A stretch of 64,000 nucleotides of DNA, from assembly GCA_035235625.1 (NCBI GenBank), contig CP141140.1:68092782-68156781 (forward strand), written 5' to 3'. Made by a program: the position numbers and the translations under genes. Source of the DNA: Saururus chinensis (Eukaryota; Streptophyta; Magnoliopsida; Piperales; Saururaceae). A model generated the notes under the pieces. That model did not search any database. It was given only the letters and a program-made list of their open reading frames with translations, and was not told the origin of the DNA. Below are positions 3,463-54,171 of the stretch, one piece after another (positions within the stretch are counted from its first letter, which is position 1; every line of letters begins with the position of its first letter).

Positions 3463-4010
3463 ATGCCGAAGGCGATCCCGGGGAGGGGAGAGGGGCTGGA
3501 TTCCGACGCCCCACCGGAATCCGGGCAATCCTATGGGGCCTGGGGGAGCAGGGGGAGTGGGAGGGAGGGGGAGCCGGGGAGAGAGGGGGGGACTGGGGTG
3601 GAGGGGGAGAGCCGGGGAGAGAGGGGGGACTGGGATGGAGGAGGAGAGCCGGGGGACCGGGATGGAGGGGGAGCCGGGGAGAGAGGGGGAGAGGGAGGGA
3701 GGGGGAGCAGGAGGGAGGGGGAGTCGGGGAGAGAGAAGGGAGCAGGAGGGAGGGGAGTCGGGGAGAGAGATGGGAGCGGGAGGGAGGGGGAGTCGGGGAG
3801 AGAGAAGCGAGCCGTGGAGAGAGGGGGGGGGACCGGGAGAGAGGGGGGATTGGGATGGAGGGGGAGCTGGGGAGAGGGGGAGTGGGAGGGAGCGGGGAGC
3901 CGGGGAGAGAGAGGGGGGGCTGGGATGATGGGGGGCCGGATTCTGGGAGGCGGGGCAGTTGGAAGCCGTGCAATAGGGCGGCAAGGTGCAGCGGGGCGGC
4001 AATGTCTACT
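3463..4010. repeat. GC-rich purine tract (GGGGA/GAGCCGGGGAGAGA units)
   Basis: A degenerate repeat of GGGAGAGAGGGGG and GAGCCGGGGAGAG words inside CACTA 1. It begins with a unique GC-rich stretch (3,463-3,540, containing GGATTCCGACGCCCC) that has a counterpart in CACTA-like element 3 near 37,075-37,110. Long open frames across it are low-complexity by-products. Confidence 0.8.
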
Positions 4011-4039
4011 AGTGATGCTTGTCACGAGCATTGCTAAAA

Positions 4040-6220: not shown

Positions 6221-7039
6221 CTTTATTATAAATTATATTTTAAAAATAATAATAATATTTAACAAATAAAATATATTATATATAATATAGTGAAAGTTTA
6301 ATCTATATATTCTTAACACTAGTTTTTATTTAAATTTAATATTTATTTATTATATATACAAATAGTAAATATTAAATAAAATATATTATATTTAGGAAGT
6401 TTATTATAATTTTTTTAATATTTATTTATTAAATAAAATTAATTAATAAAGCTTATTAGAAATGGTATTTGCGACGCTTATTTAAAAGCGTCGCTAATAA
6501 TTTTAAATTTAATTTTTTTATTTTTAATTAATAACTATTAGTGATGCTTTTATAAACATCGCTAATAGCAACACTATTAGCGACGCTTTTAAATAAGTGT
6601 CGCTATTGTAACAACTATTAGCGACGCTTAAAAAAAGCTTTGTTAATAGTTATATTTTTTTTCTTTTTTTATTTAAAATTTAATTTTTTTAGCGACGGTT
6701 ATATAAAGCGCCGCAAATACATGAACTATTAGCGACGCTTATAATAAAGCATCGCTAATATGGTAGTATTAGCGATGCATTTTCTTATGCGTCACTAATA
6801 ATTCATTTTTTTGCGATGTTTCTGTATACGCCATAAATAGTTATTTTTAGTGACACTTAAATATGTGTCGCTAATACTACATTTTGTTGTAGTGAATAGT
6901 GAGTTTGTGTATGATAGGCAAAGGTTAGCATATTACTTGACTCCCTTACATCTCATGCGTTCCCCTTATTACATTCGTTGATCAATGAAAATAAAACGTG
7001 GTTTCATCCTAACAACTAGTAGTTGAGGTAGGTTGAACA

Positions 7040-9542: not shown

Positions 9543-12189
9543 AAAACCACCGGAAATATGATAAATGATGACTTTTACCCATGCATCCATAGTTTAATAG
9601 TATGAAATGCCGATTTATATATGGATCGTTGTTAGTGCTCCAATGGCCTTGTAGGTTTAAGATTAATGATTGAATACCTGAAAAGTTTATGTAAATAGAA
9701 GCTGTTTCATGTTGCAATTGCCTAATGACAAGAAGATGAGATAGCTCGAAATGAAAGGCCCCTCAAAATATATCTGGTTTGCTGGTTGTATTGGCGGTAC
9801 ATCTGGTAAAGACTAGAAGAAGACAGTAAGAACGAAATAATGATTGCAATGGATCGAAGTCTTAAGAGACGAGGCATCTGCATCTTTTAACCAGGAGTAT
9901 TTGTCTTCACAGGAAACTGACATGGACCACATAGAGTCATAAAGTAGCTCTGGAGTGCACTTCTACCGTCCCGGGAAAACTGTTGTCAAAAGAACAAAAC
10001 AGTAGTATGCAGTGCTGATGAGATCAATACATTAGCAAACACTGTAGAAGATTTAATAGTGATTATTCTTTTAAAACAAGTCAGGAACAAATAATTAGAT
10101 ATTCTTCACTCCAAGAAGATTGCCAATTATCATCAGATTTCAAAGTAATTTTTGGTTAGAAGAAAACGCCTGGGTCGATCATCTTAGGCCTCGCATGAGG
10201 AACAGAAAGAAAAATGTAGCCAAAGACAACTTGCCAACCTCATTTGGGGAAATCCTTCTTAAAGGTATAGAAAATGCATCTTCGATTGTCATCTGCCAAA
10301 AGAAGTCGGCAAGTCATCCTTGGCTGCACTATGCTTTCTGTGTCACATGAGAGGCCATCGATGCATGGTGGACAGGGAATATTGGGGCTTCCAATCAACA
10401 GCAAACATGAGAGAAAATGTAGAGCACCTAATAGAGAAGGGGGGAAAAGTGAAAGCTTTATTGTGAAACCAAAAAAGTGGAAATGGAGGCAACGCACAAA
10501 TGGTTCTACTTGGCTGGCCTTATATAGATAGGGTCTTAGTGCATATGAGTGATGAACTTGCGGAAATGCAACAATATTGCAGGAAACAGTGCACTGCTGG
10601 TATTGGTGCATTATCTTCAATCGAGGAGAGATGAGGACATCACCTAGAAAAATCTTGTGCTGGCCCGTTAGTATAGGGTAGCAAGAGATAAGGTCCCTTT
10701 CTTCTGACTCTCTTTCTATCCAAGCTTTGTACAGATAAGACTTCGGTAGAGAAATTTACCATAATTAGTGTGAAGTGGACTAAAACAACTATACAAGATG
10801 GAGACATATATGGAAGCGTATATGATCTTCAAGCGAAACCTTGAATTGGTTCTAAAAGCCAAAGACAGCTTACCAACCATTGTATCCGTTGGTACTTTTT
10901 TCATGACATAGTAACTATAAAAGAAAAAGAGATGACAGACAATCAATGGGCGCGGCGCAGGGAAATTCTTTGAACCTTTTTAAAGTATCCCTAGAGTTTC
11001 TCCAAAGGACACAATGGAGAGAAAAAAAAAGAAAATAAAATTCAAAAATGGGTGGAGAGAGATGGTTCCTTTATAATTTATGGGCGAAAAGCGGTGTCAC
11101 TGTTATTCTCCCAAGAAGCAATGTACATGGCAGGTTCGGTGTTAGAAGCAGTGGTAAGAAAGATCTTTTGGTTCAAATATATATTAGACCCAGAAGGCGA
11201 ATATATAGAATGAATAGATAAGATGGTGATGCAATGAAAGGAACAGATGGAGGGCTGCAGAGATAATGTTTAAATCTAGGGAAGAGAAGGACTCGTGAAT
11301 CTAGGACTGCTGCTAGGGGCATTGGGCACTTGCTTTGATACTATCAAATATGGCTTGATTCCTTCTTTACTCACAGCAGAAAGAAAGGATCATGCTCCTT
11401 GGTTTTGCCCATAAAGGAAAATAGGATAAAAAGAGGTCCAGGATACATGGTATTTTTTTCATCTCACTGCTCCTTTCTTCAAAAGGAACATGTACATAGC
11501 AGGCCGATGACAACACGGGTAGGATTATGCTGTTTAGAGGTTTTAAAGGCCAGCAACTCTGATGGGGTAACAGCCCCTTATCTGCTCCTTATCTTTGAGT
11601 TGAGTGGATTGCAGTCTGTCCCATGCCATGCGTACTGCAGTACAGGCAGATGCCCACAAAACTACCTTGTTTTAGTCTTTCTGCAAATAGAAAATAAAAG
11701 ACAAAAGAAAAAGGATGGAGAGGCAACGGCAAGGACACAAGCAAGTAAGAGGTTAGGGCAGAAAAAGACACAACAAAAAGAAAAAGAAAGATAAAAGGGC
11801 AAGAATGTGGGGTTCGGCTGTGGACCTTGGTACCATAAAAATAAAAGGCCCGTTTTGTTTTTTTTTGGTCGGTAATAAAAAGGCTCTTTATGTTGTTGTT
11901 GGAATTTTGTTTTGCGAGAAAACATCATGCTATCCTTTGTTGATCGCAGCCCTTGGTTTAAGGATGGAGCTAAGAAAACATCGGGGGGAGGGGGAACAAT
12001 GATCCTAGTGTAAGCTAAGCATGAGAGCCCTTAATATTTAAGATCGATAGCGCATATACTAGCGTATGTTAGCGATAGTGATATTGACGCTAACGTACGT
12101 TAGTGTGTGTGTCATCGATCTCATAGATGAAAGGCTCCCTGCGTAACTTATACTAGGCTCATTGTAATGGGGAGTAGGAAAAACTCTTT
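9543..12189. other. Intergenic stretch, no gene recognised
   Basis: A stretch between the copia and Ty3 elements. Several ORFs of 60-131 codons occur on both strands, but none shows a family motif, paired splice signals or a repeat structure. A small hairpin lies at 12,056-12,103 (TAGCGTATGTTAGCG against CGCTAACGTACGTTA). I assign no function. Confidence 0.4.
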
Positions 12190-12527: not shown

Positions 12528-13690
12528 TTAGAGAGAGTCATTCTCCTCAAGGACAAAGTGTGGAAATTGCTCTTGAATATGGCAGACATCCTCCCAAGTA
12601 GCATCTGCGGGGTTGGTGTTCTGCCAGTGGATAAGTGCCTCCCGCTTTCCATTTTTGTTGCCATACTCTAGAACTACTTGTGGAGTCACATTTGATGCAG
12701 AGATATTTACAAGAGTTGGGGAAAGACATGGCTGCACAAATTTTTGAGGATCAAGTCTTTTCTTGAGTAAGGAAACATGAAATTACATAGGATGGATGCT
12801 ACACTCCGATGGAGGTTTCAACTTATAAGCAACAGGCCTAATTTTTTCAAGGATCTCAAGGGGGCCATATCTTGGAGAAAGTTTGGCAGGCTTAGAAGAG
12901 ATAACAGATGGTTGACGATGATATTGTAGCTTGAGATAAACTAGATCACCTTCTTGGAATTTAATTTCACGATGATGCTTATCATAAATTTGTTTCATCC
13001 TATTTTGGGCAATCTGAATTTGTGTTTTCAAGTGATTGAATACCTTGTCATGCTCAGCCAATTCCATGTCAACCGAAGCCACTCTTGCTGTTCTAGACAC
13101 ATGTAACAATAAATTTGGAGGCCCATGTATTGACTGAAATGGTGTCATTTTAATGGAAGAGTGCCAACTAGTATTGTAACAATACTCAGCCCAAGATAAG
13201 AACTTGATCCAATTTGAGGGCTTTGTGTCCACAAAGCATCGGTGATGCATCTCTATAGTCATGTTACCACTTCTGACTGTCAAATTGAAGGTGATAAACA
13301 ATACCATAGTTGAAGCTAGTTCCATTTAATTCAAAATTTTAATTCCAAAAAGAACACCAGATCTCTGTCACAGATAATGGATCTTGACATGCCGTGCAAT
13401 TTAAAAATGTGGTAAAAAAAATACTTGAGCCACACTTTTAGTAGCATAAGGGTGAATCAATGGCAAAAAATGAGCATATTTACTTAATTGATCAACCACT
13501 ATAAATATAACATATTTCCCTCCAGATTTAGGCCAGCCATAAATAAAATCAATTGAGATATCTTCCCATATTTGTTTTGGAATGGGTAACGGTTTCATGA
13601 GACCGGATGGCTGAAGAGTATCATATTCATGGCACAGACAAGTATCACAACTCTTGATAAAATTATTGACATCACCTTTCATTCCTATCC
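12528..13690 (-). pseudogene. Ty3 integrase and chromodomain remnant
   Basis: In gene order from right to left the minus strand shows a zinc-binding stretch (FIKSCDTCLCHEYDTL), an integrase core start (WEDISIDFIYGWPKSGGK, VIFIVVDQLSKYAHF), an integrase C-terminal region (FQEGDLVYLKLQYHRQPSV, KLSPRYGPLEILEKI) and a chromodomain (EALIHWQNTNPADATWEDV). The chromodomain places the element among the chromoviruses, where it steers integration to marked chromatin. Broken. Confidence 0.85.
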
Positions 13691-13917
13691 AATGAAATGC
13701 TTGCCGTAATCGGTGAAGAATATTTGAAATCCCTCATGAAAACTGTTATGAAATTGGCTTAGGATATGTGGAATTAAATCTGATGTTGCTGGTAGATGAA
13801 AGCATCCTTTGTAAAAATCAATCCATTCTTTAATTCCCAATGTGAATGTAGATTTTCCTGTGATGCTAGCACTTGCTTCTGATGGAGGTTAGGATCTTCC
13901 AAATTCAATTTTTGTAT

Positions 13918-14042
13918 GAGGTTTTGGTCAAAGTAGACTCCTACTTTAGTCAATTAACCATAATGTGAGTAACTATCCACTATTTACCAAAGTAGACTTA
14001 CTCTCATGGGAGCTTGCAAATGTGTCATGTAATTTAACATAT
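13918..14042 (+). repeat. MULE left terminal inverted repeat
   Basis: About 125 bp, matching the reverse complement of 30,851-30,978 with scattered substitutions. The word CCAAAGTAG, or its near complement, occurs three times, and the outermost 35 bp form a palindrome (GGTCAAAGTAG...CTACTTTAGTC). Confidence 0.9.
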
Positions 14043-15389
14043 ATACTCTAGATACTATAAACCTCACTAAACCCTTCCCCTGCTCAATCCCATTCGTTCC
14101 TCTCTCTGTGTCTGTCTTCTCGACTGCTCATCACCTCCTAGATCCCTCATCTCGCCATCACCGCCTTCACCACCTCCCGGAGGCCTCAAAAGAATCTTAG
14201 CACCTCTCCACCATTTCTCTTGTCGATACTCTACCATATGCTAGCCATCGGGCAAGGGTCACAGTGCACACTCTCTGCCCCCTCTCATGCTGTTGCTGTC
14301 AAGGTTGCAACCATAGAATTTTGTTGTGGACGTGGTAGGGTTTTGGAATTGGAGCAATTGTCATCCTAACCAACTTCTAGCTTGTTTGTCGTCCTAACCA
14401 TGCGTACTCTTTGTTCCCCTCTCGTGGCACTAGTAAGTTCTTGTGATCAGTAAAGGAAGCTTGATCTTGATATTTTGTCTCTTTATGGTTCTTCTTGTTG
14501 ATTCTTGATTTGCTTTTTGCTGGTGTTGCTCGGGTAGTGGTGCTTGTTTCCTGGATTAGGGCATCTGCATATTCAGTTAATCGATGTTGCATTTTTATTC
14601 TATCGTTGCACTATTATTTTTGTTGCTAATCAGTGATCCTATGGCTCTTGTTTCATCTTCTATGTTGAGCTTGATTTGAATGATGATATTTTTTTTGAAT
14701 AATGGATGAAAGGAAATTTGTGAACTGGATAACTATAAAACTGGAAAAGTGGAGATTTAAGAAGCTTAGATGACATAAATTATTTTCCTTTGCAAGGCCA
14801 TTTGCATGTTGCACATTTTAAAACCTAAAGTAAATTTTGTTGTTTCATGTTGTGAGACTCCTAGTTTTGTCCTATAACCAAAATGTGGGCAAGTTTCTTA
14901 GATTTACCTAACTGAACTTACCCATGTGAGAACTGAATCATATGTTTATTTGTTGTTTGTGGGTACTCACATTAGGTTGGGTGGGTGGTTTTGTAAATAA
15001 GGGCCAATGATTAGACTGGTAATTTATGATAGCTTATGGCTCTTGTTTCATCTCCTACGGAGGTAACATTTCTAAAAAGTTTGAGAACTAAAAATATGGA
15101 ACACTCGAAAACTATAAAATTGGATAACTATAAAACTGAAAATTTGGATAATTAAAAACTAGAAAACTAGATAATAAACAACTTATAATTTTGTGTATTG
15201 TATATTAAGAAAACCTCCTTGATTAGTGAGCAATAATTAGTTGTTTTAGGAATGGTTTCTCTTTTTCATATGTACTTGAACTAATAGGTAGATTTTACAT
15301 TTTCACTTATTTCTCTTTTGACTGATTTTAATTAGACATCTTTCTGCAACCTTAAATTATGTCACTGATTTTAATATGATATCTTTCTG
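14043..15389 (+). promoter_or_regulatory. MULE internal left region, likely promoter and leader of the protease gene
   Basis: Between the left terminal repeat and the first recognisable protease-gene coding sequence. It includes a C/T-rich stretch at 14,080-14,330 that resembles a plant 5' leader, and two clusters of the ACTGGAAAACT-like short motif (14,716-14,750 and 15,090-15,185). I could not identify a TATA box or an exon here with confidence. Confidence 0.4.
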
Positions 15390-16455
15390 TAGGAAATGTT
15401 AAAGGTGGTAGCAAAAAAAAAGAGCACTTCGACAAGCACAAAGGTCAAAAAAGGTTATTTGAGAAAATACATTTTGGGAAATATATGCAGTGTGAAATTA
15501 CTCGAAACATGTTCCCTGCCCAGGCCTTCCACCATTTGCTAAGGAGGCATAAGGGGACTTCCTATTCAAAGTTAGTTAGAGACTTAGCATCAAGTTGTCT
15601 CCAAAGGAATTCTGCATGGTCACTGGACTTTGATTTGTTGACTCGACCCGTCCTCTTCCAATAGTTCCCAAATTTCTAAAGAAAGGAAACCTCCTACTGT
15701 GAATATTGGGAGGTCCAAGTTGTTAATAATGAAGGAGGAACTGCTTCAAAAGATTAAAGTATGTCAAAATGATAAGGATGCCATCAAGTTGGCAGTCACT
15801 ACAACAAAACTGGGTATTAGCGATGCTTATGTAAGCGTCGCAATATTATTCGTCACTAAAAAGTGCTAATAACGACATATAACAAACCATCTCAAAAAAT
15901 ACAAATATTAGTGACGCATAATATGAAGCGTCGCTAATAATAATATATTAGCGACGCATAACATTAAACGTCGCTAATACATAATATTTTAGCGACGCTT
16001 GAATTTATGCGTCGTTATTACTTACGTTATTAGCGACGCGTTTATAAGCGTCACTAAAAGATATATATTTAAATTTTTTTAAATAAATTTTAACACTATT
16101 AATGACGTATGCTTACAAACGTCGCTACTAGTTTCAACAATAGCGACATTTAAAAATTAGCGTCGCTAATAATTCTCAATTTTAAAAAAAAATTAAAAAA
16201 TAAGAACTAATAGCGACTAGTATTAGCGACACATAGTCACTTGCCCACATTAATATAAAATACTAATAGCGACCTATTTTTATTAAAATTTTATTTTAAT
16301 TTTTTAAAAATTTTATTATTTTTTTATTTTTTAAAATAAAAAAATAATTAAAATAAAATACTAATAGTGACATATATAGTTATACGTCGCTATTAGTATT
16401 TTTATTTATTTTTTTATTTTTAAAATTAATTTTAAAAAATAAAAAATAATTAAAA

Positions 16456-19400
16456 ATTTAAAATTAGAGGAAAGATAGTGTGTAGGTGGATAGGAGAGAG
16501 AAGAGAGGGAAGAGAGAGGGGAGGGAAGAGAGAGGAGAGAGGGGAGAGAGAGGAGAGGGAGAGGGAGGAGAGAGAGGGTGGAGAGGGAGGAGAGAGAGGA
16601 TAGGGAGGAGAGAGGGGAGGGAACAGAGAGATAGAGGGGAGGGAAGAGAGAGGATAGGGAAGAGAGAGAGAGGGAGAGGAGAGGATAGGGAAGAGAGAGA
16701 TAGAGGAGAGGAGAGGATAGGGAAGAGAGAGAGAGAAGGGAGAGGGGGGAGGGAAAAGAGAGAGGGATTTTATTTTGTTGTTTTTTTATATTTTTTATAA
16801 ATTTTTGTATATTTTATATAAAAAAATTAATTTAAAATAAAATCCTAAGAGCAACGTATAGGATTATACATCTCTATTAGTATTTTATTTTAATTATTTT
16901 TATTTTTAAAATTAATTTTAAAATATAAAAAAATCTTAAAAAATTTTGAAATTAGAGGAGAGAGAGGGGAGGGGGAAGAGAGAGAGAGGGAGGAGGGGAG
17001 AGAGAATGAGAGAGAGAGAGGGGAGGGAGGAGAGAGGAGGGAGAGTGGAGAGGAGGGAGAGAGGAGGGGAGAGGGGAGGGAAGAGAGAGGGATTTTATTT
17101 TGTTGTTTTTTTATATTTTTTATAAATTTTTGTATGTTTTATATAAAAAAAATTAATTTAAAATAAAATCCTAAGAGCGACGTAGGATTATACGTCGCTA
17201 TTAGTATTTTAAATTAATTTTTTTTATTTTTAAAATTAATTTTAAAAAATAAAAAAAATTTAAAAAATTTTGAAATTAGAGGAGAGAGAGGGGAGGGAAG
17301 AGAGAGAGAGAGAGAGGAGAGTAGAGGGGGAGGGAAGAGAGAGAGAGGGAGGAGGGGAGAGAGAATGAGAGAGAGAGGGGAGGGAGGAGAGAGAAAGGGT
17401 GGAGAGAGAGGATAGGGAAGAAAGAGAGAGAGAGAGAGGAGAGGATAGGGGAGAGAGGATAGAGGAGAGGATAGGGGAGAGACAGAGGAGAGAGAGGATA
17501 GGGAAGAGAGAGAGAGAAGGGAGGATAGGAAAGAGAGAGAGAGAGAGGAGAGGATAGGAGAGAGAGAGAGAGAGTATTGGAAAGAGAGAGAGAGAGAGAA
17601 GGGAGAGAGGGAGGGAGAGGGGAAGGGAAGAGAGAGAGGGATTTTATTTTGTTGTTTTTTTAATTTTTTATATAAAAAAATTAATAAAAATTAAAATACT
17701 AATAGCGACGTATAGTATTATACGTCGCTATTAGTACACGTATTAGCGATATATATAATTATACGTCACTATTAGTATTTTAAATTAATTTTTTTATTTT
17801 TAAATTTAATTTTAAAAAATAAAAAAAATCTTAAAAAATTTTGAAATTAGAGGAGAGAGAGGGGGGAGGGAAGAGAGAGAGGGGAGGGAAGAGAGAGAGA
17901 GGAGAGGGAAGAGAGAGAGGAGAGGAGAGGGGGAGGGAAGAGAGAGAGAGGGAGGAGGGGAAGAGAATGAGAGAGAGAGAGGGGAGGGAGGAGAGAGGAG
18001 GGAGAGAGGAGAGGGAAGAGAGAGAGGGATTTTATTTTGTTATTTTTATAATTTTTTTATTTTTTATATAAAAAAATTAATAAAAAATAAAATACTAATA
18101 GCGGCGTATAGTATTATACGTCGCTATTAGTACACGTATTAGCGATATATAGAATTATACGTCGCTAATACATGTACTAATAGCGATGTATACGAATATA
18201 CGTCGTTATTAGTATTTTAAATTAATTTTTTTATTTTTAAAATTAATTGTAAAAAATAAAAAAATCTTAAAGAATTTTGAAATTAGAGGAGAGAGAGGGG
18301 GAGGGAAGAGAGAGAGGGGAGGGAAGAGAGAGAGAGAGGAGAGGAGAGGGGGAGTGAAGAGAAAGGTAGGGAGGAGGGGAGAGGGAATGAGAGAGAGAGA
18401 GAGGGGAGGGAGGAGAGAGGAGCGAGAGACGAGAGGAGAGGGAGGAGGGAAGAGAGAGAGGGATTTTATTTTGTTGTTTTTTTATAAATTTTTGTATGTT
18501 GTATATAAAAAAATTAATTTAAAAAAAAATCCTAAGAGCGACGTATAGGATTATACATCGCTATTAGTATTTTAAATTATTTTTTTTATTTTTAAAATTA
18601 ATTTTAAAAAATAAAAAAAAATCTTAAAAAATTTTGAAATTAGAGGAGAGAGGGGGAGGGAAGAGAGAGAGAGGAGAGGAGAGGGGGTAGGGAAGAGAGA
18701 GAGAGAGAGGAGAGGATAGGGGAGAGAGAGAAGAGAGGATAGGGGAGAGAGAAGAGAGGATAGGGGAGAGACAGAGGAGAGAGAGGATAGGGAAGAGAGA
18801 GAGGGGAGGATAGGAAAGAGAGAGAGAGAGGAGAGGATAGGAGAGAGAGAGAGAGAGTATAGGAAAGAGAGAGAGAGAAGGGAGAGAGGGAGAGGGGGAG
18901 GGAAGAGAGAGAGGGATTTTATTTTGTTGTTTTTTTAATTTTTTATATAAAAAAATTAATAAAAATTAAAATACTAATAGCGACGTATAGTATTATACGT
19001 CGCTATTAGTACACGTATTAGCGATATATATAATTATACGTCACTATTAGTATTTTAAATTAATTTTTTTATTTTTAAATTTAATTTTAAAAAATAAAAA
19101 AAAATCTTAAAAAATTTTGAAATTAGAGGAGAGAGAGGGGGGAGGGAAGAGAGAGAGGGGAGGGAAGAGAGAGAGAGAGAGGGGAGGGAAGAGAGAGAGA
19201 GGAGAGCCAAGAGAGAGAGTGGAGAGGAGAGCGGAGGGAACAGAGAGAGAGGGAGGAGGGGAGAGAGAATGAGAGAGTGAGAGGGGAGGGAGGAGAGAGG
19301 AGGGAGAGAGGAGAGGGAAGAGAGAGAGGGATTTTATTTTGTTGTTTTTATAATTTTTTTATTTTTTATATAAAAAAATTAATAAAAAATAAAATACTAA

Positions 19401-20560
19401 TAGCGGCGTATAGTATTATACGTCACTATTAGTACACATATTAGCGATATATAGAATTATACGTCGCTAATACATGTACTAATAGCGATGTATACGAATA
19501 TACGTCGCTATTAGTATTTTAAATTAATTTTTTTATTTTTAAATTAATTTTTAAAAATAAAAAAATCTCAAAAAATTTTGAAATTAGAGGAGAGAGAGGG
19601 GCGAGGGAGGAGAGAGAGAGAGAGGAGAGGAGAGGGGGAGGGAAGAGAAAGGTAGGGAGGAGGGGAGAGAGAATAGAGAGAGAGAGGGGAGGGAGGAGAG
19701 AGGAGGGAGAGAGGAGAGGAGAGGGCGGAGGGAAGAGAGAGAGGGATTTTATTTTGTTATTTTTTTATATATTTTTGTTTGTTGTATATAAAAAAATTAA
19801 TTTAAAAAAAAATCCGAAGAGCGACGTATAGGATTATACATCACTATTAGTATTTTAAATTAATTTTTTTTATTTTTAAAATTAATTTTAAAAAATAAAA
19901 AAAATCTTAAAAAATTTTGAAATTAGAGGAGAGAGAGGGGGAGGGAAGAGAGAGAGAGGAGAGGAGAGGGGGTAGGGAAGAGAGAGAGAGAGGGAGGAGG
20001 GGAGAGAGAATGAGAGAGAGAGAGAGGAGGGAGAGAGGAGAGGAGGGAGAGAGGAGAGGAGAGGGGGAGGGAAGAGAGAGAGGGAGGAGAGAGAGAAGGA
20101 AGGAGTGAGAGAGAGGGAGGGAGGAGAGAGAGAGAGAAGGGAGAGACAGTGGGAGAGAGAGAATAGAGATAGGGAGGACAGAGAGGAGATAGGGAGATCG
20201 AGAGAGGAGAGGGTAGAGAGAGAGGGGAGAGAAGGGAGAGAGTGGGTAGAGAGAGAAAGGAGAGGGAGGGTAGAGAGAGAAGAGAGAGAGAAAGAGGGCG
20301 GAGAGGGTAGAGAGAGAGGGCAGAGAGGGGGAGGGAAGAGAGCGAGAAAGGAGAGTGGAGCGAAGAGAGAGAGAGGAGAGGGGAGGGAAGAGAGAGAGAG
20401 AGGCTAGGGAATAGAGAGAGAGAGAGACAGAGAGGAGAGGGGAGGGAAGAGAGAGAGAGGAGAGAGAGGGAGGGGAAGAGAGAGGGGAGAGGGAGGGTGA
20501 GAGGAGAGAGAGAGAGGAGGAGAGAGAGGAGGAGGGGAGAGAGGAGAGAGAAAGAAAAAG
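16456..20560. repeat. GA-rich tandem array with a three-unit higher-order repeat
   Basis: Each unit starts near TTTTGAAATTAGAGGAGAG, continues as GA-rich sequence, ends GAGGGATTTTATTTTGTT, and closes with an AT-rich spacer holding one to three palindromes (such as GCGACGTATA...TATACGTCGC). Unit starts lie near 16,456, 16,944, 17,271, 17,838, 18,279, 18,634, 19,120, 19,577 and 19,912. The lengths cycle short, long, medium (327/567/441, then 355/486/457), and matching units share their palindromes and GA variants. A block of about 1.3 kb was therefore duplicated as a whole (about 17,271-18,633 and 18,634-19,911). ORFs rich in Arg/Glu/Gly across it are by-products. Confidence 0.85.
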
Positions 20561-20929
20561 TTCAAAAATATTATTAGCGACGATCCGAAATGGACGTCGC
20601 TAATAGCACTTAAGTGGCGACGCTCATTCTTATGCGTTGCCACTAATATTATCTTTTTAAAAAGTTTTATGCTATGAGCGACGGTGGGAACAGATCGTTG
20701 CTAATAGAGCAGTATTAGCGACTTTTTATTCGGCTCGTCGCTAATACAATACTTATTAGCGATGCTTGTTTACGAGCGTTGCTAATAACTAAATTGTTTT
20801 TTAAAAAATATATCTTTTAGCGGCGCTTCAATTGAAGCGTCGCAAAAGCAAATAGCTGCGACGCGTAACAGCGTCGAAAATAAGCTTCTTTTAGCGACGC
20901 TTGGTTTGAAGCTTCGTTAAATTGATTAC

Positions 20930-21730
20930 CCCGGCAGAATTTTAGCCGGAGCGGGAAATTTCGCGCCGGTCGCGAAATTGCTGATTTCCGCCCATGCTCG
21001 TGTTGATTTTGATCTAAACGAAGGGATTTCCGCTTAGTCTCCCTCATCCCCTCTGCCTTCATCTCGACTTCCTCCTCTGTTCTGGTGCCAGAAATCAGGC
21101 GACTGCGGTCCCTCTTTCCCTCTTCGTTTCAATGGCCAATACTGGGACAACATCCAACCGCTCCTCCAGTTATGCTGCTGGTGGCTCCTCCACTTCGCCT
21201 TCTTCCCAACCTTAGCCAGTTCGCATAGGTTTCTTGAGGGCATATAACACCGACGTCGTATACAGCTTTTGTACATGTTGGCAAACAGGGTCATCCTTCC
21301 ACTCGACCTCAGAAATTTCTCCCCTTCTTCTTCCTCTTTTAGTTTCTTTTTTTAGCCTAAGCTTCGATCATGAAGAACTACATAGAAGATTTGGGATCTT
21401 AAGTACACCCGTAAATGAATTTTCCTTCTTGTTCTTCAATTTTGTTTTGAAAAATGGAACTGTGGATTAAGCGGGTCAATGTATTGAAAAGCATCTGAAG
21501 TATTGTTTCTTAATGTTCTTCTATTCTCGAATTTTCGATTAAGAGGATCAATGTTGGTTTTTTTCGCCGGAGGTGTCGAGAGGTTGAATGTCGTCTCCAC
21601 CCGCAGAAGCGGGACGCTCTTACCCGCGCCAGGAGCGGGCATGAATCGACCCGCATCGTGGGTCTACACTGACCTGCGATACGGGTCTACACTGATCAGT
21701 TTCCAAACCGGGTCAATAGACCCGGTTTGG
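20930..21730. other. Unique GC-richer segment in CACTA 2, possibly captured
   Basis: Flanked on both sides by palindrome arrays. An ATG at 21,132 opens a 27-codon frame (starting MANTGTTSNRSSSYAAGGSS) that ends in a stop; I do not recognise it. Near 21,595-21,730 are GGGTCTACACTGA repeats and the palindrome AACCGGGTCAATAGACCCGGTT. It could be a captured host fragment or the remains of the element's own 5' gene region. Confidence 0.45.
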
Positions 21731-21739
21731 TTTTTTTTT

Positions 21740-22391
21740 CTTTAGCGACGTTCATAATGAACGTCGCTAATATGGTTAAATTACTTATTTTTAATTTTTT
21801 TTAAATAATCATCAACAGTAGTGACGTATACCCAAACGGCACTAATACAATATTATTAGCGACGCTTACATAAGCGTCGCTAATAATAATATTCTTAATT
21901 TAATAAAAAAAATTACAAAAATAATATTTTTTTTAGTAGCGACACTTTAGAAACGTCGCTAATACTATATTATTAGCGACAAATATTACAAACGTCACTA
22001 ATAATCTAGTATTAGCGACGCAATTTAAGCGTCGTTAATAAAGATAATTAGTGACACTTAATCCTAGATGTCGCTAATAACTTTTTTTTTTAATTTTTTT
22101 AAAAAATTAATTTTTTTTAGCGACATAAGTAAAACGTCATTAGTAGATTATCATTAGCGACGCTAGATAATATACGTCGCTAATAAGTTATTATTAGCGA
22201 CGTATAATAAACGTCGCTAATACTGTTATTAGCGACGTTTTTTTATATACATCGCTAATAGGTAATAGCGACGACACTTTTTTTGACGCTTTTAGCGACA
22301 TTTATTATACGTCGCTAATAGTCAGTAGCGACGCTTAGGATACTATTAGCGACACATACTTGCGTTGCTAATAGTCCTTTTTGTTGTAGTG
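21740..22391. repeat. CACTA 2 right subterminal palindrome array
   Basis: At least ten copies of TTAGCGACG...CGTCGCTAATA with different centres, separated by AT-rich spacers. In En/Spm the subterminal repeats are the binding sites of the transposon's own DNA-binding protein, so a similar role is likely here. Confidence 0.8.
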
Positions 22392-23731
22392 AGTAGTTCT
22401 TGTTTTGGAAAGTTTTTTGATGGGGAGAGGATGGAACAACAAGGTGGATGGGAGATACTTGTAGCTAGCATATGACCTTGATGCGTTTGATGAGTATCCT
22501 TGGGGAAAACTCTGCTATCGGGATAGATTGTGGGGCTTAGAGCAAGCTGCAAGGTTTATTGGCATTGTGACTTACAATGTGTATGGTTTTGTTCATGCAG
22601 TAACAATACATTTTACTTATTTATCTTATTTTTTAAATTATTTTAGTACTTAACTGATGAAGACTTATGTTTTAGGCATGAGCAATGGATAGGATTCTAT
22701 TAATGGGGGACGCATGTGCAAGCAAAACGAGGGCCATGTTTCCTCTTATTTGTAGGTGGGCATCTTATAAGAAGCCCAATTTTGATTAGATTCAAGAGGT
22801 GGTTTTTAGTGGGAAGGTATATACTAACTTTTCCTTCTATACAATGAACTATGCTCTAAGCATGTGTGGTACATTTACGTTGCGATATGTATTTGTGTAG
22901 GTGCAGGTGCTAAAAAGCATAAATGTGGACATGAAGGACGAAAATTTAATGGAACTTATTCATGAAGCTGCAACTTTGAAGTCCTTTTGGAGTAGTGAGA
23001 GAGTGACATTTTCATCAATTGTTAATCTCACTACACTTTCCGATGTTGATGATGTTGCAATGATTTCGTCCACTGATGAGGCCTCCACAAAGGAAGTGGG
23101 AGAGGCAGAGGTGGATGATTCCACATAGGAAGAGGCATAGGAGATATTGGAAAAATGTAGAGTGGATGGGGAGTCTCCTTGAGAATAGGAAGGGAAAACA
23201 TAAGGTGGTGGATGGGGGTTTGCATACCACTCTACTGGATATACTATCTTCTATAAGAAGGATTGAAAATAAAGTTGATAGAATTTCCATCGACATGAAG
23301 GAACTTACTGAGAGGGTAGATGGTATGGAGTCAATTTTTTTGAACAAGGCATTGAGGAAAAAGGTAAAAATTAACTTTATGGGCTTTTTTAATTGCAAAT
23401 TAGCCAACAATGATACATGAATTGAATTGAGCTGTAATTATATGTGTAGGTGCCTACTGCTGAACAACAATATTCAGATGAAATGGATTTTTATGTGGTT
23501 GTTGTTGATGAAGTAAGTATACATGATATGATATGATATGAAGTTGAAAACTTATTGTTCCATGTTCTACTCTTTCTCAACTAATTATTCATTCCAAGGT
23601 GTCATGACAGATTTAAGGTTTAAATGTAGGTTCAGTAAGAACACTGGAAAACTGTCAAACTAGAAAATTGTCAAACTGGAAAACTAGAAAAATGGATTAT
23701 ATACTAATGATTTGCTGTGTTTATGTAGACT

Positions 23732-24217
23732 GTGACTAAGGAGGAAAAGGTTGAGGGAGAGGAGGAGGAAAAGGATGTGGAGGTGGAAAGGGATGATGAA
23801 ATGGTTGAGGCAGTGGAGGAGGAAAAGGTTGTGGAAGAGGAGGAAAAGAAGGCAGACAATAAGGAAAATGAATTAGAGGAGGATGAAAGGGAGTTGGAGG
23901 AGGAGGAAAAGAAGGTGGAGGATGAGGATGTAAAGGTTGAGTGGGAGGAGGAGGAAAAGAAGGTGGAGGAGGAGGATGCAAAGGTTGAGGCAACGGAGGA
24001 GGAAAAGGTTGAGGAAGATGATAAGGAAAAAGAGGGAGAGGAGGATGAAAAGGAGGCGGAGGAGGAGGAAAAGCTAGATGTAAACGATGGGGGTGTGGAG
24101 GAGGAAAAGGACACTAATAAGGATGGGGGAAGGGTGGAGGAAGAGAATGATGGAAAAGGGGGTGGGGTGGGGGTTAAAGATGAGGAGAAGGAGGAGGATT
24201 GTTGTGCTTGTTGCTGA
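23732..24217 (+). repeat. Acidic Glu/Lys/Val repeat tract in the protease gene linker
   Basis: 162 codons free of stops, dominated by GAG, GAA, GAT and AAG codons in an irregular repeat of EEEEKKVEDE-like blocks, ending DCCACC before a stop. It follows an intron-like stretch ending TTATGTAG at 23,729. Acidic linkers between the two conserved parts are common in transposon ULP-like proteins. The reverse strand frames (Ser/Pro-rich) are shadows. Confidence 0.6.
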
Positions 24218-26703
24218 AATGGAGGCTAATGATGGTGGAAAGAAAGTTGTTGGCGATGAGGTACTTGTCTTTTTTGTTTAGTTAGTATACTTTCATATAA
24301 CCTAAACTAATATTTTCATATTTTCTTATGATTATGTAGGATGAAGAAACAGACAATAAGCATTGAGTATGCATAAAATGGAAATTAAACTAGTGGAAGG
24401 GTGAGGAATAAGAGTAATATCAAAAGACCCCCACACAAAAAGGGGAAAAAAGAAAATCTACTGAGGAGGATGATGATATTCACCCTAACCTTCTAAAGGT
24501 TGATGCCTCTTCCATGAAGAAGTTGAAGATCAATAAATTGCTCATGCTAATTGAGGTTGCCGATCTGGATTTTACTAACCCCATTTCATTTGGGGTTGCA
24601 GAGGAAGAAAAGTTAAATAAGTTTATGGGGAAGGATGGGAAGAAGTGAGATTATTTGTTACTAGTTCCAACGATGTATTGTTAGTAATATTACTTATTTA
24701 ATTGTCATTGTATTAGATTTATGGGGTGGTAGTTGTAATAAGCAAATATGCAAACCTTGGGGGCACCCTAATAACCCCAACATTCTCAAAGGGTTTTACA
24801 AACCCTAGGAGTTGGCTTGGAGATGAAGTATGTATATTGATTTAATTCATTTTGATATATGACTGTAAGAGCTAAATGAGGAATCTGATTTACTCTATAG
24901 GTTTCATTTTCTTATAGCACATTGACGCATACGTGACACTCTTATGCAACCATAGGCCTCAATGGACATTTGTTAAGGACCATACATTCCGCTCAGTTCA
25001 TTTCATAGTAAGTCTTCCTTTTTTTCAAACAAAAAACTATGAACTGTCAACTAAATTACTATCAATAGGATAACTATGAAGTGGATAACTGTCAATTGAA
25101 TCTTGTTAAGCTTAGGTAAATAGTAATGTGTTTGCAGAGACTACTTGTGCAAGATTGCAAGGAGGCATTGGATAAATGGATTGCATTCAAACATGAACAT
25201 GGCAAACTGCCAGAGTTAGAGCTAGTGGTGGCCATGTGGACAACAAATCCGGAATCGTTAAAGAGCATGTTGAGTGTGCATGGAACACCATTTTCAAAAA
25301 ATTTATCTCGTCACTTCCCACACCATGTCAACAATAATCATTGGATTTTATTTCTGCTCCATGTATGGGAACAATAGATTTTGATTTTTGACCCTCCTCA
25401 CTCGGGGGAGGCGTTGGAAGTGAATTATGTTGAGTTGAATAAACTACATGTCCTTATTCCACTAATTCTCTATAAGTTTGGATGGTTACCGTTTGCTGCA
25501 TGGTGGAAGCTGGAGTTTGCTGAGGTAGTTGGTCATAATAGATAGGTTAATTGTGATAATTGTGGTGTTTGTGTGCGCTTACACATGTAGTAAATGTCAC
25601 ATCACTTTGCTTTTGACTTCATTGGTAAGGATGTGCCTCGGCTAAGGAAGTTAATAGCTTACTAGTTATTGACAAAAAAACTTTTACGTTGACATCATCT
25701 TGGAGGTAATTTGTGGTTTCCCTTTTTGCATTAATGAGATAAGTGATTTTTACTAGTTCTGATTACTAAGGTGGATTTGATCGATATTTTGAAGTTGATA
25801 TGCTGTCAGAGTGACCTAAGATTCATGGTTTGAATTTTATTTGGTTTCTAAGTGCTTTTCTTCTTCTTTGCACTATGTTCTGCATGGTATGAATATTTAT
25901 GGTTGCTTATTTAGTGGGATTTCAGTTTTCTCTTATTGTGATATGAAACTTAGTCACTCATCCTATTTTTTCTTTTGATATCACATAATTGGAGTCATAC
26001 CTATTATCTTGTTTAACATATTTTTTTAGAGGATGATAATGCCCTCCGGGAACAGGAGAAGCAAGCCTTAATTTAGAAACTTGAGCAGCAGAAATTTGAA
26101 GAAGCTTCGATATGAAACCATAATTAAAAACTATATCCATGTAAATTTGACCATGTGAACCTCATCAAAAATCCTAAGTTCTTGAAATCTAACATCTCAT
26201 AAATGACTTAGAGGCATTTCATGCTTCCTTTTTTTATATCAAACATGTGGTATTTGTTAGGCCCATCCACTTGATTAATATCTACAGCCATTGGGGGCGT
26301 GCCCCCATCCCCCATATCCTCCCTCCCGTGGTGATCTCCCTTTCATATGAGAGGTTTAGTGTTGAAAAACTAAATTAAAAACAAAAATGAAACATGAGGC
26401 ATTGCACATATATTAGAAAACTATCTGGTTTGTCAATTACCAAATTGCTAGCTCTGACAACGATAAAAAATGCCTATCGTTATGACAATGTAAAAAAAGG
26501 GAATATTGTTACTAATCCCATTTCAATTGAGGTGATATGACAATCCCTAGGCCTAACACTCACATTTGGCCTCCTTGTTTTGAACTCTACCCAACTATGC
26601 CTCCACTCACTCTACTAGCACAACTACTCGCATCGTTGCGCAGTAGTTGAACTTGCTAGTAACTAAAGATTTATGATGTACACGGTTAACAATTGGGTAG
26701 CTG

Positions 26704-26705
<2 letters not shown>

Positions 26706-26773
<68 letters not shown>
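26706..26773. repeat. (AT)n microsatellite
   Basis: About 34 uninterrupted TA/AT dinucleotides in the spacer between the two converging MULE genes. Confidence 0.95.
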
Positions 26774-26776
<3 letters not shown>

Positions 26777-27432
26777 CTTAATAGAATAGAGTTCCCATGT
26801 CAAAGGGGAAAACTGTCAAACTGTAAAGCTAGACATCTAGAAAACTAGCCAACTGGAAAACTATCAAAACTAAAAAACTAGAAAACTGAAAAAAGAGAAA
26901 ACTGAGAACATGATAAATAATCTCCATACTGTAGCATAAACTCATGCAACTTACACTTCTGCAACATAATTGATTTGTATACAACTGATGTCCACAAATA
27001 TTTATTTGCAAATATAACTATAATTGAGAGAGAAAAGGGGATTTGTATACAATTGATGTCTCAAAAACCCTTTGTGTATGTGAGATACACAAAGAAAAAA
27101 CTATGGATCATTGCATACAAGTAATATCAACAAAAAATTGCTTTTGTCTACAAAAATTACTTCTGCAAATTATGTATACCTGCCATATCCACAATATTAC
27201 TTTTGTCTCAAAACATGTATCATATTTCAAACTCTGAACTAATATATTGGAAACTATCACCTCCAACATCCATTTTGTTTGGTTGTGGCATATCTCTTGC
27301 ACTATGATTGCCTGAGGTCATCAACTTTTCTTATTTATGTGCAGGCCTAGACTTCCTAGGTATACTTGTCTTTTTCTTCTTTGATGAAGGCACTTGTTTC
27401 TTCACTTTATGATTTGTGACTGATGGAACCTC

Positions 27433-30384
27433 TCATATATCTACTTTACTCCTATCTTCATTGTCATTGTCATCATGATGCCTAACTGGGAACTGACAAG
27501 TAGCTCTGTTATGTCCATACCCCTTACATTTACTGCACTTAACTGTTCTCTTTTCTTCGCCATGCGAGAGTACTCGCTTTATCTTTGGTCGTCCTGCAGG
27601 AATCCTTGAATGTGGAGGCTTCAATTGAATTACCCTTACAAATTCAAGTGTATCCCATTGGCATTTTTGTAGAACAGGGTATATGCCACACTTGTAAACT
27701 TCCTTATATGTATCATCTCTGCAGAATGGTGAGCAATATGTATGATAATCAATGTCTTTTTGGGCACGTAGCTAGAGCATGTTCACATGGTAGGCCCATA
27801 GCCTGGAATTTCCCATAGGTGCATGTCCTAGCTTCCAAATCAACCTTATCATCATATGGATATGACTTCGTATAAAACTCATGTTCATTGATAGGATAGC
27901 ATGCAAGTGCACGTGCTTCCTTAACCATTGCCTCAATCTCCTTTTCTGCCCACAAAGTTAATTCACTGGTCCACTTTCCTATGCATGTGATATGTTGATA
28001 CCACATATCTTGCTTCTTTAAGCATATACCCTCTAATATGGCCACAATTGGATATTCCCTATGCTCTATAATCATGGAGTTAAAACTCTCGCACCCATTA
28101 GAAGTCACAATGTTATACCTCTTCATGGGGAAGTGTACATTTGCCCATTTTGCTACATTTACATCGATGAGCCACTTTGTCTGCATCTGGATTAATCCGT
28201 TGTATGATGGAGATTTGTTCGTCAAATTCCTACACACGGTTTGTCTTTGCTAAATGTAGAAGTGGGGGAGATGCCTAGATCTTTGAATCTTGAATGCATA
28301 TTTGACCACACATGATAAGCACAACACCCATGTACACAATCCGGAAATACATGAGGAACTTGTGAAATGATTGAATGGTTTCTATCATATATTGATATCA
28401 AGCCCTTCAATATGGCCTAGGACATGCTTCAGATGTGTAAGTACCCAATTCCATGCTTCATTGTTTTCTGATTCTCTGTCACCAATGCAATGGGGTACAA
28501 GTGATTGTCACCATCTAAAGTTAATGCCACAAATAAGATGTCTCTATATTGTCCTTTCAAATGTGTGCCATTTATAGCAATGACTTTGCACATGTGCTTC
28601 TTGAAATTCTCTACACACACAAAATAAAGGATACAAAACACATTTGGAATAATTTGTTTCTAAGGTCTTATTTGATCTCTGTGATAGTCCTTGAATTCAT
28701 CCTTTCCAATTGGTGTAGATAGGCTAGAAGGTCTTCTTAAGACTCCTCAAATGTTCTCCTAAACTTCTCCACAACGGCCTCTTTAACCTTCCAAACCCTA
28801 AGGTAACTTATGAAAACTCCATACTTTAAATTGATATCTTTTTTTTATAACGGATGGTGTGTAAGAACCATGTCCCTCCAAACGACAATATACAACATCA
28901 TGATGATCACACTTTTCTCTTGACAATGATCTTCCCCAAGTAATGCCTTCAAACATGTATGCACCGAATTCATTTCCTTGACTTCGAACATGACACATCT
29001 ACTAATTCTTGAGGCATGTAGTCTCCACGGGCAGTTCTCAATAATACATCTAACTGTATACCTTGATTTATTTAAATATATAACCTTGAATTGGAACTTG
29101 GTGTACACGGTCATGTTGTGAAGGTGAAGTTAAAGCATGCCTTTGTCCTTAAAATGTTGACCAATTTCTATCACTCGTTGATCACAAACCTTCCCTAATT
29201 GCACCCCAAAGTCGTTATTTACATAGGGATCCTCCCCAGTAATATCCATTTTGTGGGTTAAATTCGTGGCTTCTTCATCATGTCTCAATCTCTTTTTCTT
29301 GCTAGCTTTATTGTTCCTGAAAATTACAAGTGTCAACAATTGAACTAACAACTGCCAAACTAAAAAACTATCAAATTTATAGTGTTTCTGTTACATCCTT
29401 GTAACTGATGTAGCTAGAAGTGATATTTGCGGACAATCTATCGCTTCTACTTTTCATCTTAAGGCGTATCAATAGTCTCATACATCTACATACTAAAATA
29501 TAAACTATATTCACAACATTTTTTATACCTTTCATCATTATGACAAGACTGATCTTGGGGTTATAGAGAACTCATAACATGTTCTTCTGCACCATGATTC
29601 ACCCCTTCTATAGGATCGTCTTCATTTGCAGATGGTAAAGCATAATAAGGATCTTGCGCACACTCATTTTTCCAGTCTTCTTCAACTTTTCCCATTTCAA
29701 ATTCAAAGTCATCTATAATCATGTTTGGGACATCTCATTAATACTTGAATCGATCTCATACTCTTGATTTACTCTTGCTAGGTCATCACGTGTTACTTTT
29801 GAATCAATGTCAATGCGGGATGCATGCATTTTCTTCATCATACTCTCCTTCTCTAAATGAAATAACTCATCTAATTGGAGTTTATCTTCATCACAACTAA
29901 GATTGACAGTTGTGTTATGTGGAACACTATAACATGTGCCCTTCTCCCAGATTGCTCCTGTTCTTCCTATTTTCTCCTCCCAGTTTGCACGTTCTATTCC
30001 CATCTCCTCCTGCCACTTGGACACATTGACACTAATATTCCCATGAGTAATATTCTCTTTTCTTGCTTTAGTTATCATCAATGGTATTTCATTCTGTCTT
30101 AACTTATTCTCTCGAAGAAAGCAATGGAGAGTTCGAGTATCATGTATTTCAAAAGGTGGAAGGTCAATAGGAACTGCAATAGGATATATAAAACTTAACT
30201 TTAATGAGTACTCTTTCTTCAACCATTTACAAACTTCATACAACATATCCAAGAGAGCATCATAAGTGACTGTGCATGGAACTTCAATTAATTTTGTTTC
30301 GGCATTGTCGCAATTATATTTCCTACCACTTGCATCCCAATGGACATCCCAAACACACAACAAACCTTGTGTGTCCCTTTCCAT
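27433..30384 (-). pseudogene. MuDR-type MULE transposase, decayed
   Basis: Read leftwards from 30,384. The first open piece (30,384-29,719, 221 codons) is an N-terminal region (WDVHWDASGRKYNCDNA). A second piece at 29,114-28,845 carries the MuDR N-terminal domain (YTVRCIIENCPWRLHASR). The catalytic MULE domain follows: INGTHLKGQYRDILFVALT near 28,575, where the family usually has Asp in the DGTHLKG position; GLISIYDRNHSII near 28,400; and the C-x2-H signature CCAYHVWSN near 28,320. Next are KRYNIVTSNGCESFNS near 28,120, a SWIM zinc finger (CTYGKFQAMGLPCEHALA, near 27,800) and a zinc knuckle (CSKCKGYGHNRATC, near 27,520). Introns probably separate some pieces. Frame breaks and the Asp-to-Asn change mark it as non-functional. 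In MuDR-like elements this enzyme cuts at the terminal repeats. Confidence 0.85.
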
Positions 30385-30850
30385 GCTCTTCTCATATCAT
30401 ATCAGTAATCTATTTTTCTATTTTTCCAATGATCCAGTGTTCCAATTTTCTAGTGTTCTAGTTTCCAGTTACCCAAAATATCATACTAGCAGAAACTACG
30501 TAATCTCTAAGATATAACCATCCCAAAATAACAATTTTCATCCAATAACACCTTTTTCATTATCCCAAATAACCTGAATCAATCTACAGGTTGGAAGGGA
30601 AATAAACTACTCATTATTCAAAGTTGGAAAATGTGAAGTACTGGAGAAAGGAAGCAGGGAACAGAAAGCAACTGGGCAAACAAAACCATGAGGAAGAAGA
30701 ACCTACCCAAGAGGAGGAAGCCATACAAGAGATAAAACCACCGCGAAATGAAGTCATATGAGAGAAGAAGACATCTTTTTCCTTAAGTGAGCAACCGACC
30801 GTCTAGAGTTTTTTTTCGACAACTTGTCATATAATGAAGGAGAGGATAGT

Positions 30851-30978
30851 TATGTCAAATTACAACACTCATTTGCAAGTTCCCATGTGAGTAAGTCTAC
30901 TTTGGTAAATAGTAGATAGTTGCTCACATTTTGGTTAAATTGACCAAAGTAGGATTCTACTTTGGTCAAAACCTCTTT
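30851..30978 (-). repeat. MULE right terminal inverted repeat
   Basis: 128 bp, ending CTACTTTGGTCAAAACCTC, the inverted counterpart of 13,918-14,042. The terminal palindrome (TTGACCAAAGTAGG against TCTACTTTGGTCAA) is better preserved here than at the left end. Confidence 0.9.
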
Positions 30979-30987
30979 TTGTATTGG

Positions 30988-37120: not shown

Positions 37121-37583
37121 TATTTTTAATTTTTTTTCTATTAACAATGCTTTTAATAGCTTCATAATTACCATTTAGTTTTTTATTTATTAGCGACGCT
37201 TTTGAAAGTGTCGCTAATAATATTTTTTATATTTATTTTTTATTAGCAACGCTTTAAAAGTGTTGTAAATAATATTTTGTTATTATTTTTTCTTATTAGC
37301 GATGCTTTCAAAAGCATTGCTAATAAATTTTTTTATTTTTTCTTTTAGCGACACACAAATATCGGTTGCTAATAATTTTTTTGATTTTTTCAAAATATTA
37401 TTATATTAACGATGCTTTACAAAGTGTCAGTAAGAATTTACTATTAGTGACACATATGAATAAGCATCACTAATAATTTACTATTAGCGACATGTTAAGC
37501 GTCGCTAATAGTCTTCTTTCTTGTGGTGTGGTGAGCATAAAGGAGGATCAAGGATGTTAGTGAGAAGGCTCAAATGATACCAT

Positions 37584-54055: not shown

Positions 54056-54171
54056 TAAGTCATGTTTGTTTCAATTTTTTTCAAGTCGTTCAAAGTTTGT
54101 TTCCTCTTCATGCGTCCATTGATTCTTTGCAGAAATTTGACACTGAAATTGCAACTGTATTTCCTTTTCAG
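54056..54171 (+). other. Likely intron in the expansin 5' UTR
   Basis: A donor CA|GTAAGT at 54,056 and an acceptor TTCCTTTTCAG ending at 54,171 bracket 116 bp of T-rich sequence. The coding ATG lies three bases past the acceptor (GAGATGG). Confidence 0.5.

Follow-up and report, generated by a model that had tools for sequence, protein, structure and literature searches.

A decayed MuDR-type element of Saururus chinensis, its DUF1985/C48 gene and the motif arrays of its family

The window, a whole stretch of 64,000 nucleotides from Saururus chinensis (contig CP141140.1, positions 68,092,782 to 68,156,781), holds a Mutator-like element (MULE), here called W, at 13918-30975 between perfect 9-bp target-site duplications (TSDs), TTTTTGTAT. 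W is a decayed copy of a MuDR-type MULE family bearing terminal inverted repeats (TIRs), many of whose copies associate a transposase gene with a second gene encoding DUF1985, an acidic stretch and a protease-like C48 part. The partnership of transposase and DUF1985/C48 gene is real, the convergent layout seen in W is that of a minority, and both genes were kept by purifying selection before they decayed. Arrays of a short motif in the non-coding DNA of the family bear a suggestive likeness to the targets of the Arabidopsis VANC proteins.

The inverted ends of W are 125 bp long and identical at 111 of 126 aligned columns; a separate repeat search returned 88 nt at 90% complementarity. The 9-bp TSD, the long TIRs and the MULE, MuDR DNA-binding and SWIM domains that characterise the MuDR group are all present. 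An earlier note on this DNA had given the duplications, the 125-bp ends and the left boundary correctly but had set the right boundary at 30978 rather than 30975. It had also read the 17 kb as a single element, which is ruled out by the ends, AGT duplication and internal repeats of a CACTA element of 6.6 kb nested within it; without this insertion W comprises 10.5 kb of MULE proper. One gene is read from each end, as had been claimed; both are broken by frame changes and stops. The features of the locus are as follows.

13909-13917, no strand: left TSD, TTTTTGTAT, exact 9-bp repeat
13918-14042, + strand: left TIR, starting GAGGTTTTGGTCAAAG, 111 of 126 aligned columns the same as in the right end
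14735-15170, no strand: non-coding stretch on the 5' side, holding a short tandem repeat and three sites of the YAGTTTTMY type
15397-15796, + strand: first exon of the DUF1985/C48 gene, part 5' of the CACTA (start set by eye; broken frame)
15794-15796, no strand: AGT, left copy of the 3-bp duplication that flanks the CACTA
15797-22391, no strand: nested CACTA with ends CACTACAACAAAA, TTAGCGAC repeats and GA-rich arrays inside; foreign to the MULE
22392-22394, no strand: AGT, right copy of the 3-bp duplication that flanks the CACTA
22395-22605, + strand: first exon continued, C-terminal part of DUF1985 (profile match across the CACTA site)
22901-23420, + strand: region of the DUF1985/C48 gene matched in relatives, with a frame change inside
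23639-23696, no strand: 8/16-bp tandem repeat ACTGGAAAACTGTCAA, in a presumed intron
23729-24217, + strand: open stretch within the DUF1985/C48 gene, rich in Glu and Asp
24918-25070, + strand: Peptidase_C48 part, N-terminal piece
25126-25674, + strand: Peptidase_C48 part that includes the Cys region (NCDNCG) as well as the motifs for His and Asp; several stops, one at the Gln position
26807-26904, no strand: intergenic 8/16-bp tandem array GGAAAACTAGCAAACT with five AGTTTTMY sites
27436-27771, - strand: C-terminal region of the transposase, in which a zinc-knuckle-like motif was recognised by eye; no Pfam profile reaches its cut-off
27752-28249, - strand: SWIM region (SWIM, 6.7e-4, 19.6 bits, equal to the cut-off of 19.6)
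28252-28659, - strand: MULE transposase domain, stops inside (PF10551, 5.9e-9, 36.7 bits, cut-off 27.6)
28926-29252, - strand: MuDR-type DNA-binding domain, one stop inside (PF03108, DBD_Tnp_Mut, 2.6e-14)
29722-30396, - strand: N-terminal region of the transposase, open over 225 residues; no Pfam match above cut-off
30851-30975, - strand: right TIR, pairing with the left TIR
30976-30984, no strand: right TSD, TTTTTGTAT, exact 9-bp repeat

The right-hand gene, on the - strand at 27436-30396, is a MuDR-type transposase, as previously proposed. Each of its three domain matches comes from a separately scanned piece, the gene being broken.

The gene opposite is assigned with different firmness in its two parts. 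When the first exon is read across the empty CACTA site, DUF1985 is matched at E 1.7e-8 with 35.0 bits, just below the cut-off of 35.1; the first exon of copy K, a relative elsewhere in the genome, matches at 4.6e-12 with 46.5 bits. The C48 part of W alone gives no Pfam match at E up to 1 and is named C48 because it is 61% identical to that of K, which scores Peptidase_C48 at 9.7e-13. The earlier description of a DUF1985/C48 gene opposite the transposase thus stands for DUF1985 at the edge of the threshold and for C48 by way of relatives only. A profile of seven C48 copies, W included, matches yeast Ulp1 (1euv, E 0.0012) and SENP5 (E 0.0087), its match to SENP2 not being significant (E 0.36). 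The His, Asp, Gln and Cys positions of this profile line up with Ulp1 and are taken here to be the catalytic residues of Ulp1-type proteases. All four are kept in four of the seven aligned copies (K, M, L034 and A) and damaged in the other three, F being without His and Asp, and N and W having a stop at Gln.

The nested CACTA inserted into the DUF1985 exon of W. Its open frames of at least 100 residues are mostly low-complexity (no transposase profile search was made there), and the element is apparently non-autonomous. A second CACTA-type element at 3077-6894 of the window has CACTACAACAAAA ends and TTAGCGAC repeats, with differing 3-bp flanks (AAC, AAT). Another cluster of TTAGCGAC/GTCGCTAA motifs at 37190-37501, with low-complexity open stretches nearby at 34.2-36.5 kb, is perhaps the end of a further CACTA.

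Relatives of W were sought in 516 Mb of genome on 11 contigs, the window lying on contig 1. With the left end as query, the best 40 of 477 candidate places were scored (W's own two ends are among the 40 and were counted as misses). A listed C48 or DUF1985 match lies within 21 kb inside 15 of the 40, compared with a random mean of 0.38 and a largest value of 3 in 500 trials. The search by terminal repeats that had been recommended earlier thus finds some copies with the protease gene, and 25 of the 40 best-scored places without a listed C48 or DUF1985 match. Ten left-end places were read. In two of them, A (C1, 28.03 Mb) and F (C6, 18.85 Mb), the two genes are present and convergent; E (C6, 20.79 Mb) and I (C2, 4.97 Mb) are shortened to 3.7 and 4.2 kb and retain scraps of both genes; the remaining places have one gene or parts within the stretch read. 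I, L031 and L033 share a deletion of the middle of C48, and E, whose match ends at the same place, is placed beside them by the C48 tree, so that a lineage of shortened and presumably non-autonomous copies has multiplied.

Three further loci, K, M and N, form a younger group in which the DUF1985/C48 gene lies upstream of the transposase on the same strand. M (11.8 kb) and N (11.75 kb) are both complete and have perfect 9-bp TSDs, ATGTTTTAA and TTTTAATTA, respectively, an indirect sign of mobility. The two ends of M agree at 96% over 148 bp, and the ends of N match those of M over 148-150 bp.

Gene counts were taken from the best 150 or so scored candidates of each search (of 2831, 957, 516 and 1710) and are therefore lower bounds; the lists compared hold 148 of 150 transposase rows, 146 C48 entries and 150 DUF1985 entries, the transposase and C48 rows of W itself having been left out, as was any second row for one place. 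The transposase copies were listed by a family-specific query for the DNA-binding domain, because W's own MULE domain is absent from the best MULE-profile matches and the one pair examined there proved to be FAR1-type; those matches were rejected as a stand-in for the family. At least 67 of the 148 listed transposases have a listed C48 match within 15 kb (random mean 1.4, largest 6, 500 trials), 56 of these pairs being on the same strand with the protease gene upstream and 11 convergent; none of the 67 is divergent or has the transposase upstream. For DUF1985 entries within 20 kb the count is at least 47 of 148, with 39 on the same strand and 7 convergent; in the remaining 1 the transposase lies upstream (at 18.9 kb). 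For 69 of the 148 transposases neither a C48 nor a DUF1985 entry is listed nearby; they make up 13 of the 50 best-scored copies, 21 of the 50 that follow and 35 of the last 48. Starting from the C48 list, a listed transposase is found within 15 kb of at least 70 of its 146 entries, but of only 17 of the 50 most W-like.

The stable partnership of transposase and protease gene suggested by the earlier note is thus borne out. The convergent, MuDR-like order on which that suggestion relied is not its mark: maize MuDR does have two convergent genes, but the count of 11 against 56 among the listed pairs, with the complete M and N on the one-strand side, rules this order out as a hallmark of the family. 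In the transposase tree of seven copies (unrooted, no support values) K, M and N stand together, the convergent F is next, and A, H and W lie beyond, so that a single switch of gene order is enough to account for those copies whose layout is known. Between the two genes of M (L039-L040 joined, 6589-6662) and of K (L037-L038 joined, 6430-6503) is a TIR-like fragment that matches the inner part of W's right TIR at 74-77% over 74 bp, perhaps a trace left by the rearrangement that reversed the transposase.

A DUF1985/C48 gene also occurs beside a MULE transposase of another type. At L035-L036 (C2:48192500-48212499) a FAR1/Jittery-type MULE transposase, open over 754 residues, is convergent with a gene scoring for DUF1985 and C48; a mitochondrial-carrier fragment lies between the two, and the DUF1985 exon also matches the Plant mobile domain at 1.6e-5, below that family's cut-off. 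At six more places a MULE-profile match is convergent with a DUF1985 match 12-16 kb away.

Selection on the genes was followed by the ratio of nonsynonymous to synonymous substitution rates (dN/dS). Median pairwise values, taken without alignment rows that cover 40% of columns or less, are 0.37 for the transposase (21 pairs), 0.40 for the DUF1985 part (36 pairs) and 0.49 for C48 (91 pairs); the shifted-frame controls give 0.87/0.96, 0.83/0.88 and 0.67/0.95, respectively. One-ratio omega is 0.54 for the transposase (7 copies), 0.59 for the DUF1985 part (9 copies) and 0.74 for C48 (14 copies), and differs from 1 at p 9e-16, 1e-7 and 0.001, respectively, the omega=1 null having been taken on a fixed tree at seven values of kappa. 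The protease, for which a dN/dS check had been advised, has accordingly not evolved neutrally. Within the young trio K, M and N the ratio is 0.29-0.38 for C48 and 0.70-0.99 for the transposase, with few changes; C48 is lowest there at Fisher p 0.005-0.05, from rounded counts and pairs that are not independent. The evidence of selection on C48 is thus weakest tree-wide and strongest in the youngest copies.

The non-coding DNA of the family carries short tandem arrays. In K, M and N the highest-ranking non-coding 8-mers are mostly those of an 8-bp repeat, AAAACTGG/AAAACTAT or on the other strand AGTTTTCC/AGTTTTAT, and Tandem Repeats Finder reports an 8/16-bp unit in M and in the window. In the published part consulted, the targets of VANC21 (YAGTATTAY) and VANC6 (AGTTGTCC/AGTTGTAC) are likewise tandem repeats in non-coding DNA (PMC5735166). 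The generic pattern YAGTNNTMY, drawn by us from these two motifs, was counted in non-coding parts set by hand, with 200 shuffles of each as controls. It occurs 23 times in W against a shuffled mean of 6.1, 39 against 5.2 in M, 44 against 5.4 in N, 27 against 2.9 in K and 14 against 3.3 in F; these five of six copies each exceed all 200 shuffles. Elsewhere there are 2-4 occurrences in the coding parts and 50 in the 46.9 kb of window outside the element. Among 1500 column permutations of the pattern one matched its ratio in W, M, N and F, apparently a rotation of the same array, and for the 8-base form three did so. The family word, YAGTTTTMY, is one substitution away from both published VANC motifs. 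M and N together have 31 pairs of same-strand AGTTTTMY neighbours less than 60 bp apart, of which 28 are spaced by a multiple of 8 bp; in W this holds for 4 of 6. YAGTTTTMY is also kept in the shortened copy I (7 against 0.8) and in the contexts of two more such copies, L031 (11 against 0.6) and L033 (18 against 0.5). By contrast, the counts do not exceed those of the shuffles in two CACTA elements, in a FAR1-type MULE locus or in two stretches of the window.

These observations point to a full form of the family consisting of a transposase and a DUF1985/acidic/C48 protein that, on balance, probably works like the VANC/KIU anti-silencing proteins of Arabidopsis. The DUF1985/C48 protein would bind YAGTTTTMY-type motifs in the element's own non-coding DNA and, once bound, would clear silent chromatin marks there and lower methylation; the transposase would then be expressed, and full and shortened copies alike would be able to move. 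More tentatively, the family may hold a complete VANC-type system in TIR-bearing MULEs, the AGT..T core being an old recognition code common to MULEs with and without TIRs that predates TIR loss, and the tie of the second gene to the arrays having outlasted the inversion of the transposase gene relative to it; this stronger claim is possible rather than probable.

Several results weigh against such an account. The family is unlike the VANDALs, as described in the parts of the literature consulted, in having good rather than degenerate TIRs (PMC10398659), and DUF287, which VANC is drawn with (PMC5735166), gave no match at E up to 1 in one K exon and four pieces of the W gene. The DUF1985 part stands at 1.05-1.18 in K, M and N, a poor fit to a recently selected binding domain, and C48 is the least constrained part tree-wide, with a shifted-frame control as low as 0.67. 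The highest-ranking non-coding words are an AT microsatellite in W and TIR words in F and A. Copy A is not enriched in YAGTNNTMY (7 against 3.6, largest shuffle 10), nor is H in the part read (5 against 3.9, with one specific site); J is barely enriched (16 against 7.5, largest shuffle 15), its 4 specific sites equalling the largest shuffle, as do the 4 in E. The exact VANC21 and VANC6 motifs show no enrichment in copies of the family and were rejected, only the generic pattern and the one-substitution word being enriched. Moreover, the motif comparison was made after the arrays had been seen. About 3% of random 8-bp units come as close as one mismatch to a published motif, so that the likeness is suggestive rather than a proof.

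The arrays could alternatively be subterminal binding sites of the transposase, unrelated to the second gene. This is the best placed of the competing explanations and is nevertheless doubtful. Most AGTTTTMY sites of M and N do lie in the outer non-coding DNA, with opposite orientation at the two ends; however, the arrays of W are also found inside the protease gene (23639-23696) and between the genes (26807-26904), and the array word is a single substitution away from two VANC motifs.

The protein could instead act as an enzyme in transposition or silencing, an idea raised in the earlier note: it would strip proteins of silencing or repair of SUMO (small ubiquitin-like modifier) or of a modifier related to it. 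The complete catalytic positions of K, M, L034 and A, together with the low dN/dS of C48 in the young trio, agree with an active protease, while the damaged positions of F, N and W and the weak tree-wide constraint on C48 do not. In addition, the available text of the VANC21/VANC6 paper (PMC5735166) is without the word ULP and that of its follow-up without 'protease', so that anti-silencing has been described there without a protease. Enzymatic action as the explanation is held to be unlikely.

Chance capture, by which a host ULP fragment was transduplicated once and carried passively, is very improbable: gene capture is frequent in MULEs, the ULP-MULEs of grapevine are not monophyletic in the sections consulted (PMC2528002) and 69 of the 148 listed transposases have no listed partner, but the association recurs across numerous copies in both layouts, the DUF1985 and C48 parts each have an omega below 1, and a DUF1985/C48 gene is found at the FAR1-type MULE locus as well. 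That the second gene is the equivalent of mudrB, apparently required for integration in maize according to the part consulted of PMC6446971, is scarcely credible, since the convergent position in W and in 11 of the 67 other listed pairs is not kept in most of them and the protein carries DUF1985 and C48 (as judged by its domains).

Around the MULE the window holds other features. Just to its left, an open stretch at 12783-13325 ends in an SH3_Tf2-1 match (1.7e-11) and is probably the remnant of a gypsy-type retrotransposon. A match to the MIR169_2 precursor lies at 10204-10339 (81 bits on the - strand, 57 on the + strand), and an expansin gene lies at 54150-55240 (DPBB_1 4.8e-24, Expansin_C 1.9e-34). 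The genes are those of a plant; as tests of the host, MIR444 gave no match, and Lhcb1 similarity and a GC3 of 0.75 did not single out a particular plant.

The anti-silencing account has precedents in known systems, described here from the parts of each source that were consulted. ULP genes in MULEs are already published; what is new here is the testable hint given by the motif arrays. ULP-MULEs of melon and rice (van Leeuwen 2007) are cited in the grapevine study, which itself describes MuDR-like and Jittery-like families with ULP1 regions in either orientation, in elements that have TIRs and in others that lack them (PMC2528002). The grapevine elements resemble the W family in the MuDR- or Jittery-type transposase, the downstream ULP1 in either orientation and the 9-bp TSD where found, and differ in genome and family and in that ULP was treated as a captured host fragment; the two sections consulted make no mention of DUF1985 or of motif arrays. 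A literature search, in which subscription papers were mostly not covered and which is weak evidence of novelty, gave no recognised description of VANC-type arrays in TIR-bearing MULEs outside Arabidopsis.

The Kaonashi (KI) MULEs share with W a C48 (KIU) gene reversed relative to the mudrA gene (PMC2528002, PMC6117577). They are non-TIR elements, whereas W, M and N carry TIRs of 125 bp and more, and most of the gene pairs listed for the W family share a strand.

The Arabidopsis VANDALs encode VANC proteins, which have DUF1985 and DUF287 and counteract silencing in a sequence-specific way (PMC5735166, PMC10398659). A 2026 review, citing Sasaki 2022 EMBO J, ascribes the same action to KIU proteins, which are Ulp1-bearing VANCs, and calls the part played by their Ulp1 domain unknown (PMC13317346). 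The earlier note's view that the role of the protease is unresolved therefore still holds for the Ulp1 domain itself and no longer for DUF1985, whose anti-silencing action is published. The VANDALs are like the W family in having a DUF1985 gene beside a MULE transposase and short AGT-type motifs in tandem in non-coding DNA (PMC5735166, PMC10398659). They differ in that VANC is drawn with DUF1985 and DUF287 and the W family has DUF1985 and C48, in that the motifs are not identical, in the degeneration of their TIRs (PMC10398659), and in that anti-silencing in the W family is a proposal.

Maize MuDR, finally, resembles W in its long TIRs, 9-bp TSD, MURA-type transposase and convergent second gene. 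It differs in that the second gene of the W family is of the DUF1985/C48 kind and its convergent order belongs to a minority of copies; the switch of layout within one family makes gene order a poor guide to function. Beside these systems the W family, with good TIRs, many copies and two gene orders, offers a second setting in which anti-silencing by DUF1985/Ulp1 proteins and the contribution of the protease can be tested, and its motif arrays yield a specific and cheap prediction.

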